Positions 18,816 through 24,170 are shown, counted from the stretch's first letter. The stretch is DNA of 38,009 nucleotides from Candidatus Methanorbis basalitermitum (GCA_031287415.1 JAITSY010000012.1:1-38009); one strand, 5' to 3'. A program made the numbers and translations. The notes: generated by a model not told the origin, from the sequence alone.

Positions 18816-19782
18816 ATCCGCCAGAGATCCCTCTTCTGCCACATAGAAGACAGCGAACTTGCACTATCCGACAGATTAACGAGCCAGGCCTCGGTGATCA
18901 AAGGCATGAGATTCCCATAGACGCCGTGATGTGACTGAACAATGTGGCGATGCTGCAGGAGTTGCGGTACGGAGATAAGATTTTTTTGTACGCATCGATG
19001 AACATGATGCCCATGGCGATGTGCTCAATTAAATTGTCGGTATCGTTTGTTACATAGCTGTAGCCGACTTTGTCGAAGCAGAAAATATTCCCGATGTCAT
19101 GCAGGACTGAACCGGCAATGACCATGTCGCGGTTGATCTCGATCCTGGGCATCGTCTCAACAAAATTCAGGACAATTCTTACAGTCTCGAGCGAGTATTC
19201 GCAGAGACCACCGATGTATTCATGATGGCGGCAGGACATTCGTAGAATCTGTTGTCCATACAGCAGGAGACAAACAGCTGGAGATCACTGTCTGCAATGC
19301 CTGCAACGATCCTCTGAATCTCGACAGCGTTACCGCTGATGTCTGCTGGTGTGAGGAGGACCTCGGTTTCCTACATTGGTCTGAGGAAAACAGGCCCCAT
19401 GAGCAGTGAAGTCAAGAGTATCAGGAGAGTCAAAAAAGACATACAATTTGCCGTTCTGGTTTGTTTTTCCGACGCCGGGTATCGCACACACCATGCCAGT
19501 CTTCATCGCACGGGCTGCTTCGGCAGCTTTGTCGCCGTAGGCCTTGTATTCGAGGATGCCGGTGCGGTCGGCAATCGTCCAGTGGACAAACTGTTCACCA
19601 TGTTTGATGCGGATATCAGAGATCCTGACAAGAAAAAGAGAAAAAACTTCCGTTTCATTCCCATTCAGTTCTGCATAGAGGCTTTTTTCCCATGGATATT
19701 TCCGTAGATAGATATGGAAGGCCGGAAAATAAATAGTTGTAGGCTGGAAATCAACTTCGCAAACCCTCGAAAAAACACGCAT
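18816..19782 (-). pseudogene. YhaM-like OB-fold plus HD-domain 3'-5' exonuclease, frameshifted
   Basis: The OB-fold block (about 19700-19400) reads VFSLFLVRISDIRIKHGEQF and WTIADRTGILEYKAYGDKA. The linker (19375-19240) reads EVLLTPADISGNAVEIQRIV. The HD domain block (19239-18930) contains RHHEYIGGLCEYSLETVRI and AGSVLHDIGNIFCFDK, with the metal-binding HD present. The C-terminal block (from about 18930) reads GNLMPLITEAWLVNLSDSAS. Shifts lie near 19370, 19230 and 18930. The total, about 300 residues, matches YhaM/CBF1-type exonucleases that trim RNA or single-stranded DNA. It lies 58 nt after the TPR-ATPase gene on the same strand. A TATA-like ATTTATTTTC is present near 19725-19735. Confidence 0.75.
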
Positions 19783-19839
19783 GATCTTCTTTGCAGGGGA
19801 CTGGGACTAATCGTAGTACGCGGGTTACGTATAGGCCGG

Positions 19840-22800
19840 TCACCAACTGACCTCCATCACCGCTTTCTCCTCCACCTTCAAGGAGAGGTCATTCTCCGTT
19901 GGCACAAACGCGTACTTATCCATAGGATTGTAGGGGTCATATAATGCACACTTATCCAGAACATCCACAAACTCACGGAGGTAGAGACGCGGTACCACAT
20001 CAACGCGGCCACCAAATCTGCCCGTTACCCGTTCGATCATCGCTCTGGTGAACCGGATCGAGACCCGGGTCTTGTCAACCTCGGAGTATGCCTCGGTGTA
20101 GATCTCGATGACCCTCCGCGAGACCACCTCCAACTTCTTTACATCAAACTTGAGCAGAACTATCTGGGTCTGCATCGGATTAGAAAATCCATCATCGGCT
20201 ATCATACCGATGCGGTCGTACAGCGGAGGCAATGATCTGATGCCTTTTGCACTGTCAAAGAATGCCGGCGTTCCGGCAAACAGGAAGAAGCAGTTCGACA
20301 GCTCATTGCGGTCGATCATATTGCCGGAAGTTAATGTATCCCCTCGCCCTCTGCGGACGGGCGAACACCAGGGCTATCTCCATCTCATCAAAGTTCACGA
20401 GAAGGCCTGCGTAACCTGCCTGCACGATGATGTGCACAAGACCATTCAAGAATGCAAGGGCGTCTCCTTCTGTGACCACTCCTTTGAGTCCCGCCCGCGC
20501 TTTAAACGTTCGTCCAACTGTCTGTTCGCCTGAGATCCAGCCGACCGCTGCCTGGCCTGTGGTGAAGTCTCCTTTGTTGTTTGCCTGATAGTAGGTCCGA
20601 AGCGCCGCCGCAAAACCGGAGTTCGTGCCGCTTACCCGCATCAGCACTGCCTCTATCTCCTTTGCAGTCAGATCGGCAAATGCCGGATCGTTTTCATCTA
20701 TGCCAGTACTGATCAGCCGGTCCTCGATTCCGTAAATCCACGTGTCAATGATACTTTTGAGGGCATGGGTCTCCATCGGTGTCGTAAGGCCTGCGCAGAT
20801 TCTCGCAGACACCGCCTGCAGTTTTTGTGCAGGGCATATCTGGTGAGAGCACCACATGGCTGGTCACAAACTTTGCAGCAAGAGCTATCTCAATCGCACG
20901 CGATATCAGAAATGTCTTGCCTGAACCGTACTCACCGCGGACAAACTTGCAGTCGGCATGCCCAGTCCCGACGAATGCAAGCTGGGAGAGGATAACTTTC
21001 TCCTCGGTTGCAAGGCCCACTGCCAGTCTCCCGAGTCCTGACTCCGGCACCGTTCCACGGCGCAGGGCATTGATAATCGCAACGCTTTCCAGACGGCGTC
21101 CGTCTCGTCCGACCCCATTATTCTCCGGTATAGCCATAAATCTCCCGCGGTCGCCGACGCCACGTTTTTCAATAATTGTCACACCCTTTTCTGAAGCCTT
21201 CATTAAGATGCCATTCATAATGCCGTTTACGCGGCGGGTATTCAGAATAGACCGGAAATCCATCTCGGTTGCCGTGTGATGTTCCCGCAGGAAAGCAACT
21301 ATTTGCTGTTCACGTTCATCGAGATCCAGAAGATTTGCAGCTGGGACAGGCCCTTTTACATCGGCATCAGATTCCAGCCAGACGTTTTTTCCAGAAGTAC
21401 TGGCCTTTCGGCAAGTGCCCGGTCCTTTGTCTGGGCGAGGAGCTGCATGAAATCCTCAACCTTGATGGTCACAGGGTAGCAGGGTATCACGTCAAGGCCG
21501 AACAAGCAATGCCACTTGCACTCCTCGTAATCCTGTCGTTCAAGGGCGTCACCTGCCGCATACAGAAGACCGACAGCGAGCATCTCGCGACCATTGGAGG
21601 AGAGCTTTTCCAGAACAGAGATCAGGCGTGCAAGCACCACCTCCATGACCTTCTGGATACGGTACATGGCTTCTTTACCGCCGAGAACCTCGCCTGCGGC
21701 AAATTCGAGGTCTGCTACGCGAGTGATGTTTGTTAAGATGTAGCGGATGACAGTTTCACACTCACGATCCTGGTCAAGGCGTTTGAGAAATGCTGCATAT
21801 GCAATGCCGCCATGGATGTAGTCAGCACGGTAGGCACGGTAGTACCAGTCCCGTGCCTGCATACAGGCATGGGCTTCTTCGTAGGCGGCACCGATCTGCG
21901 TTAAGCAGACATCGGTCGGATAGGAAGAGAGAAGTACACTGATGACTCCCGCAACCTCTTCTTTGCTGCGGACCGAGTCAAGGAAGGCCTTGAATCGGGT
22001 GATGACCAGCTCCTGCATTGTGCGATCGGCAAACTCGGCATCTTTTCCACACTCCTCAGCTATCAACTGCCGATAGATGATGTTCGCCTCGTCGCGGTTG
22101 CCGGTCCGGAAAACAAGTTCGGCCTCAAGCAGCCAGTAGACTGGATCGGATCTGTTTTGCAGGAGAAGACTGAGTTCATAGCGGGCTGCATCACAATAGC
22201 CAAGAAGCTTTTCGAGCAGGACAAAGGAGAACCGTATCTTGGCGACCTCATCGTCGTCAAGCTGTTCCTCTTCGAAACTGTCGAGAGCTGAACGGTAGGC
22301 GCTTTCGGCAGCTTCAGGGTCAAGAGCCGCAAGAGCTTCCAAGTCGAGACGAAGATACACGATATCGCGGACGATATTCCAGCCGCGGAGGGCGGCGGTC
22401 ATCGCCTTTTGATACTCCTTTGCGGCAAACAGCGCCTCCACATACTCGGGAGAGAATTCGTCTTCGCCGAAGTTCTGGGCATGCAGTGCAGCAGCCTCTT
22501 CCGGCTCACCGACCGCGGTGAGGGTCTGCATGAGTTTTCTGATATCCGTCGGGTTAGAACCGAACCGCACAAGGGTGCGGAGAGAGGGGATGGCGCCGCG
22601 GAGATCATTTTTTCCAGAAGCAGACGTGCGTAGCTTTTGAGTGCCTGGCGGTTCTCCGGATCAAGGATGAGGGCGGTTGCGTACTCGGAGACATCATGTT
22701 CGTCGCTAGTCTTTTCCATGACATCAGCAAGGTAGCTGTGCAGATACGATGATCCTGGCATCAGCTGTATGAGATCGCGGAGCAGAGATCCGGCGGTGTC

Positions 22801-22959
22801 GTACTGGCCGGTCTGGGCATAACTGCGGGCGGCAAGCAGCAGAAGGGCCGGGTCACCCGCTCCGGAGACAAGGCTGATGACATCGGCAAACTTTCCAGCA
22901 TGAAAAAGCTGCATAGCCTGGTCAAGTGCAGGAGCAGGACGGGATAATTCGTTTGCCAT
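19840..22959 (-). pseudogene. TPR-repeat plus DUF2791 (BrxD-like) P-loop ATPase, frameshifted
   Basis: Read as one gene from the ATG at 22959 (MANELSRPAPALDQAMQLFHAGKFADV), this spans about 1,040 residues. Residues 1 to about 530 are TPR-like helical repeats. Residues about 530-1,040 form an ATPase of the DUF2791 type found in BREX BrxD: EREQQIVAFLREHHTATEMDF (winged helix), Walker A RGEYGSGKTFLISRA, VVLSPDMP, LVNFDEMEIAL (Walker B-like), and NCFFLFAGTPAFFDSAKGIR. The frame changes four times: near 22605 and 21390 in A-runs, and near 20835 and 20315. No in-frame product of full length can be made unless the shifts are assembly errors. It lies 4 nt after the DJ-1 gene. I infer the fusion because the reading continues across the A-run shifts; two adjacent genes is the alternative. 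Confidence 0.75.
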
Positions 22960-22963
22960 TGAA

Positions 22964-23476
22964 TCATGCGAGATTTGTGAGGATGGCATCGGCGAATGCT
23001 TGCGAGTCCCGTGGCATTTTTGCGGTGACAACTTTTCCTGCGACGACGACCGGCTCGTTAACAAGGATGGCCCGGTCCAGCTCAAGAATTCGGCGGGATG
23101 CGGGCGTGTCAAAAGCGGTCACGTTTTTTCCGGCAAGAAGTCCGGCTTCTGCGAAGACCACCGGGGCGAGACAGATGGCAGCAGTGAGTTTTCCACTGCT
23201 GCCGATTTTATTTGCGATATCTATCAGCTTTTCACATCTCCAGAGATAGTCCTGACAGCCGATACCGCCGACGACAACAAGCCCGTCATACTCGTCTGGG
23301 CTGACATCATCGAAGGCAAGATCGGACTCGACAATCTCCCCGTGCATGCCATAGCAGGTGCCTTTAATGGTCGAGGCGGTTACGCAGGTTATACCTTTCT
23401 CCTCGAGGGCAGATTTCGGAACAGTGTATTCCTGATCTAAGAACCGGTCTGGAGCTATGGCTAAAAGAATCTTCAT
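22964..23476 (-). CDS. DJ-1/PfpI-family protein
   Basis: 170 residues, intact. The family core is MKILLAIAPDRFLDQEY at the N-terminus, DYDGLVVVGGIG-type (residues about 60-72), and the nucleophile elbow AAICLAPVVFAEAGLL with the conserved Cys near residue 100. PADSRR-type helices and a C-terminal QAFADAILTNL helix follow. Members act as deglycases, proteases or redox-stress chaperones; the exact role cannot be told. It is the only intact gene of the minus-strand cluster that continues into the TPR-ATPase and OB-HD genes. Confidence 0.9.
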   Translation of the reverse strand: MKILLAIAPDRFLDQEYTVPKSALEEKGITCVTASTIKGTCYGMHGEIVESDLAFDDVSPDEYDGLVVVGGIGCQDYLWRCEKLIDIANKIGSSGKLTAAICLAPVVFAEAGLLAGKNVTAFDTPASRRILELDRAILVNEPVVVAGKVVTAKMPRDSQAFADAILTNLA

Positions 23477-23655: not shown

Positions 23656-24170
23656 ATGAACCGACACAGATATCACCCGCAACTTGTCCACTGGAAAAGC
23701 CTGCCGTCCAAAAAACCGTTCCTCCTCCGAGATGTCCGTCTGTGTGGAAAAACATGGCTTCTCAAACAGTTCGGTAAAGAACACTTTGCCGACACCGCCT
23801 ACTTCAACTTTGAAGGAGAGAGTCCCTCGCATATGCGAGGAACCATTAACGGAGAATTATGTTCTCGCCGAACTGATCGCGACAAATATCCCGCAGATCA
23901 TTTTCTGGAAGTCTGGCAACCGGGCGAAGGTGGATTTTGTGGTGCTGTTCGGGGTGGCTATTGTTCCTGTCGAAGTCAAGACGGCATAGAACACCCGGCC
24001 AAAAAATCTGGCCCGTTGCCGAGGAGCTGTATCATTCAGCGCTTGCAGTAAAGATAAACCTCTCACGGCTCCGTATAACAAATATGCCGGAGGGAACGCT
24101 GCTGGAACTGCCATTGCCACCCATCTGGCGACTGAATGGATTTGTGAAAGAACTGACCGACACTCCGTAA
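23656..24170 (+). pseudogene. DUF4143/AAA_14-type ATPase remnant with internal deletion
   Basis: The N-terminal block NRHRYHPQLVHWKSLPSKKPFLLR, then CGKTWLLKQFGKEHFADTAYFNFEGE, is the start of the AAA_14 P-loop (Walker A degraded). It jumps at about 23830 to the C-terminal DUF4143 block EPLTENYVLAELIATNIPQI, FWKSGNRAKVDFVVLFG and VPVEVKTA (nuclease-like fold). After another shift it ends with SLARYR-like KINLSRLRITNMPEGTLLELPL. Some 250 central residues are missing. These ATPases are mobile, abundant archaeal genes of unclear role. Confidence 0.8.

Follow-up and report, generated by a model that had tools for sequence, protein, structure and literature searches.

The question raised by positions 18816–23476 of the window (the whole 38,009-nt stretch of Candidatus Methanorbis basalitermitum DNA that we analyzed, GCA_031287415.1 JAITSY010000012.1:1-38009) is whether a block of minus-strand genes located there constitutes a hitherto undescribed system and, if so, what such a system does. 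The original prediction had described three minus-strand genes in a row, the middle one encoding a single very large TPR-DUF2791 protein, with remnants of other defense-type genes nearby. The genes are real and in the predicted order, but the block comprises four of them, TPR and ATPase being encoded separately. A DJ-1/PfpI-family gene (22964–23476, minus strand; 170 aa; PF01965, E=2e-37) is intact and forms the upstream neighbor of three pseudogenes on the same strand. These encode a TPR-winged-helix protein (21141–22960), which a profile matches in pieces at 22609–22959, 21380–22612 and 21141–21389 in differing frames; a BrxD-family AAA+ ATPase of the ORC/Cdc6 type (19840–21137), recognizable as PF10923/BrxD over the pieces 20820–21137, 20321–20836 and 19843–20322 (E 2e-30 to 2e-39); and a predicted OB-HD YhaM-like exonuclease (18816–19692; 313 aa in relatives). 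In the window copy of the latter, the HD region is changed, with CEYS in place of CEHT and HDIGN in place of HDIGK, and the C-terminal part is gone. Homology places the start of the OB-HD gene near 19692, so that about 150 nt, rather than the 58 nt proposed earlier, separate it from the ATPase gene. Outside the system lie, on the plus strand, a broken formate/nitrite transporter gene (fdhC-type, PF01226; 17925–18681) downstream and an AAA_14/DUF4143-like ATPase remnant with an internal deletion (23656–24170; the DUF4143 part is a by-eye reading) upstream. Neither is a recognized defense gene.

In the relatives examined, the TPR gene (~607–615 aa) and the ATPase gene (~430 aa) are both intact and usually overlap slightly, the TPR reading frame typically ending just inside the 5' end of the ATPase ORF (an overlap of about 20 nt in Methanocorpusculum). 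A 1-nt deletion near 21146, found in the window copy only, merges the two frames at this junction and accounts for the apparent reading of 1,040 residues; a TPR-ATPase fusion is thus ruled out.

The assignment of the ATPase as BrxD-like held. It scored 438 bits against PF10923, 404 bits against the PADLOC BrxD profile and 399.6 bits against the NCBIfam BREX_BrxD profile (NF033438), above the equivalog cut-off of 350, and the P-loop GSGKT and the Walker B DE residues are conserved in relatives. The closest Foldseek matches of its predicted fold (pLDDT 84) were ORC/Cdc6 AAA+ proteins, with BrxC among the best PDB matches, albeit with weak E-values (best E 0.003). The ATPase therefore resembles archaeal Orc1/Cdc6 and ORC proteins in fold class, but it does not belong to them by sequence, and it shows no winged helix of its own; one is carried by its TPR partner. 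The TPR protein (pLDDT 90) is predicted to form a TPR solenoid (residues 5–512) followed by a C-terminal winged helix (residues 542–607), its most conserved part. Foldseek matched this model to generic TPR proteins only (OGT, Naa15, Ctr9, Ski3; query TM-score <=0.41). No sequence relatives with solved structures were found for either the ATPase or the winged helix, the TPR protein had no TerB match in a profile search, and comparison of its winged helix with TerB_C by hhalign detected no homology (probability about 0).

We then surveyed 150 Methanomicrobiales genomes from six families (f1–f6), with counts made by hand from tables. The TPR gene was present in 32 of 33 genomes of f1, 12 of 12 of f4 and 33 of 33 of f6, and the ATPase gene in 30/33, 12/12 and 33/33, respectively, the gaps in f1 being incomplete genomes; f2, f3 and f5, with 72 genomes in total, contained neither at full strength. 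In the families that carry them (Methanocorpusculaceae, Methanofollis and Methanoregulaceae), practically all genomes have the two genes next to each other, without exception among the loci at which both could be called. Scanning 84,980 species genomes yielded 71 named TPR loci, all in Methanomicrobiales (Methanocorpusculum, Methanocalculus, Methanofollis, Methanoregula, Methanolinea) or labeled only Euryarchaeota, and a wider sample of the phylum contained no full-strength TPR protein in other orders. The neighbors are housekeeping genes, with pyrG, guaAb and a thioesterase gene upstream and hisD or uvrB nearby, contrary to the defense-type surroundings that had been proposed. The pair thus shows none of the patchy distribution, horizontal mobility or defense neighbors expected of a defense island; a mobile origin was rejected given this setting and the lack of TPR matches in plasmids, phages and viral contigs. 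Values of dN/dS between relatives are mostly 0.01–0.07, indicative of strong purifying selection, and the distribution indicates vertical inheritance. Separate TPR and ATPase genes with housekeeping neighbors are the very arrangement that the original prediction had named as evidence against itself, and this is largely what the relatives display.

The better candidate partner lies outside the window. In BREX type 2, BrxD is tightly paired with BrxHI, and helicase loading has been proposed for this dyad (PMC12839542). A search with a BrxHI profile (PDLC02503) recovered a helicase of ~700–750 aa, mostly at 490–560 bits, in all three families that carry the TPR-ATPase pair, whereas the best matches in the other three families were only Lhr (~365 bits), apart from two Shango helicases. 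The helicase is of the BrxHI type (521–558 bits for BrxHI vs 352–407 for SngC) and falls in a clade that includes neither Lhr nor Shango helicases. In trees, the TPR-associated ATPases form one clade with BREX BrxD (91/99) and the helicases another (100/100); Shango sequences lie outside both. The helicase gene occupies a locus separate from that of the ATPase in each of the 20 genomes inspected, never adjoining BrxD and in many cases lying beside thioredoxin/purF. G022, a genome that is 78% complete, encodes BrxHI without TPR or ATPase, perhaps due to incompleteness. On a species tree built from SMC with outgroups, which replaced a poorly resolved Lhr marker tree, about two changes suffice to explain the presence pattern. 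Independent co-occurrence events at the family level are therefore few, placing significance out of reach for a sign test on the co-distribution; the window genome adds one further joint loss to the family-level pattern. BrxHI appears to be the best functional partner of TPR and BrxD.

Taken together, these observations point to a BrxD-BrxHI dyad that belongs to neither BREX nor Shango, is accompanied by a TPR protein and has become fixed in three methanogen families. We consider it quite probable that the dyad and the TPR protein make up one module. The chances are about even that the window holds a decaying copy of such a core, vertically inherited Methanomicrobiales module, that is, the TPR-winged-helix protein and BrxD, with BrxHI encoded elsewhere. 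As to how it might work, family membership and co-distribution point, with slightly less than even confidence, to helicase loading: the TPR-winged-helix protein would serve as an adaptor, binding DNA and partners and bringing in BrxD; BrxD would oligomerize on DNA with ATP and load or switch on BrxHI, a Ski2/Lhr-related helicase, and BrxHI would unwind or remodel DNA or R-loops. We lean, by a little, toward a role in genome maintenance rather than defense, since nearly all members of these families carry the genes, which are vertically inherited, constrained and dispersed; maintenance taken over from a defense-type ATPase-helicase dyad is the most likely role. More specifically, and tentatively, a BREX-2-type dyad of bacterial kind could have gained a new TPR-winged-helix subunit and become dispersed core machinery for genome maintenance, a helicase loader of defense origin fixed by vertical descent.

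The known systems closest to this module are BREX type 2 (phage growth limitation, Pgl) and Shango. With the former it shares an ATPase that groups with BREX BrxD and a BrxHI-type helicase in the same genomes, but here ATPase and helicase occupy separate housekeeping loci, a TPR-winged-helix partner is present and inheritance is vertical. The 25 genomes searched from the genus to which the window belongs contained no PglZ (PF08665), two control genomes being positive; no PglX/BrxC core was detected among the recurrent neighbor genes at the locus; and a 2026 survey reported no archaeal type-2 BREX (PMC12839542). In Shango, a TerB-ATPase-helicase system, a large protein is likewise encoded directly upstream of a PF10923 ATPase and a BrxHI-like helicase belongs to the set, but in the present module TPR and a winged helix take the place of TerB, the helicase gene is non-adjacent, and neither ATPase nor helicase belongs to the Shango clade (100/100). 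A literature search found no prior description of TPR-BrxD, and no text on DUF2791 in archaea. The set thus appears to be undescribed, as had been predicted, although the fusion, the link to a nuclease and the defense-island context that came with that proposal were not supported, so that the initial interpretation as a whole is partly supported. Few parts of BREX are as poorly understood as BrxD and BrxHI, and a lineage that has retained the dyad alone, without PglZ and under strong purifying selection, offers a minimal natural system for the dyad's own role; it also cautions that a BrxD annotation implies neither BREX nor a defense island. Separately, accessory Shango-type TerB-ATPase-helicase loci occur as extra copies in some Methanomicrobiales genomes, sporadically distributed, and on a plasmid of the haloarchaeon Halocatena salina (loci L191–L197 and L248). 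A Deinococcus plasmid (L060, 3981–17224) carries tandem pairs of BrxD-like ATPase and BrxHI-like helicase genes beside repeat proteins, another non-BREX dyad, with no PglZ annotated in that stretch.

The same module could, alternatively, be a constitutive, vertically fixed antiviral system in which the TPR-winged-helix protein would detect or bind incoming DNA, BrxD would load BrxHI and the helicase would block viral replication, as is assumed for Shango or BREX-2. We regard this as rather unlikely, yet a serious rival to maintenance, because the close relatives of the ATPase and helicase are defense components (BREX-2, Shango) and because Shango, with its analogous order of large protein, ATPase and helicase, inhibits phages (PMC10250203). 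Furthermore, identity between families is lower for the TPR protein (~35%) than for the ATPase (~55%), a faster divergence such as a sensor might show, and loss from a genome undergoing reduction is consistent with dispensability. Against immunity stand the near-universal, vertical distribution outside islands under very low dN/dS, the dispersal of the genes over two housekeeping loci with no nuclease or methylase partner, and the lack of any trace of the TPR gene in plasmids, phages or viral contigs. If maintenance is the true role, a defense module would have been adopted as archaeal core machinery; if defense is, the module is an unusually stable, vertically fixed one.

A further alternative, which we consider distinctly unlikely, dispenses with the helicase: TPR and BrxD would be a complete two-protein ATPase machine, for example in STAND-like signaling or in transcription control through the winged helix, and the co-distribution of BrxHI would reflect merely shared ancestry. 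Strict adjacency is indeed limited to TPR and BrxD, with BrxHI at another locus, and the BrxHI link rests on few independent events. This reading is countered by the BrxD-BrxHI dyad known elsewhere (PMC12839542), by the single clades that the ATPases and the helicases each form, and by the window genome itself, where the decay of TPR and BrxD is paralleled at the syntenic helicase site: BrxHI is reduced there to a relic of ~36 codons beside three undamaged upstream genes (about 80% identity).

The decay bears directly on what the window contains. Alignment to the closest relatives revealed about nine coding indels (1, 2, 8 and 10 nt) in ~4 kb at the locus, distributed over the TPR, ATPase and OB-HD genes, which bears out the earlier report of frame breaks in the large gene and the nuclease gene. 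One might take these frame changes for assembly or sequencing errors in genes that are in fact intact, given that the window genome is a 1.16-Mb draft, 74% complete, and that the broken copy retains a low dN/dS (0.03–0.08). This is very unlikely: ~14.4 kb of housekeeping ORFs in the window, including SMC, ScpA, TopA, GatA/B and Ech-type subunits, contain zero frameshifts vs ~33 expected at the locus rate, and sequencing error as the sole cause would have to explain the 8- and 10-nt deletions, the altered HD residues and the deletion of BrxHI at its syntenic place. Given the contrast in indels and the altered HD residues, the disruptions most likely represent real pseudogenization, and the low dN/dS suggests that it is recent; TPR, ATPase, OB-HD and BrxHI have, on these alignments, all been lost from this genome. 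Lhr is frame-broken as well, in pieces of 83–90% identity in three frames (contig C13, L203 3574–5343), so that decay extends beyond TPR, BrxD and BrxHI, and the joint loss may be general. Between 15900 and 26500 of the window, the formate transporter gene is split and the AAA_14/DUF4143-like ATPase gene deleted inside, while housekeeping genes remain open. Such selective gene decay suggests a reducing, perhaps host-associated Methanocorpusculum genome.

The most improbable account is the one first proposed, a sense-and-degrade operon of DJ-1, TPR-ATPase and OB-HD with the nuclease as effector: these genes do adjoin in many Methanocorpusculum, and OB-HD adjoins the ATPase gene also in Methanofollis, but OB-HD is missing from f6 genomes that have TPR and ATPase, is present in f2 and f5 without them, and is found at a distance of kilobases in Methanocalculus (f1); in two Methanocorpusculum species (G003 and G008) it maps to a different part of the genome. 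Thus, when co-occurrence is followed across relatives, TPR and ATPase stay together and OB-HD dissociates, which excludes it as an obligate partner. The OB-HD protein does share the OB plus HD architecture of the 3'-5' exoribonuclease YhaM, its best solved relative (E 9e-19), with similarity spanning nearly the full length, but at 83.3 bits vs a family cut-off of 460 it is a distant archaeal relative, and it is unlinked to the TPR-ATPase pair order-wide. DJ-1 was likewise excluded as an obligate partner; it adjoins TPR only in Methanocorpusculum, and elsewhere a glycosyltransferase or giant PAS kinase gene intervenes. In Methanofollis (L043–L046), the intervening gene encodes a multi-PAS histidine kinase of 1,600–1,850 aa.
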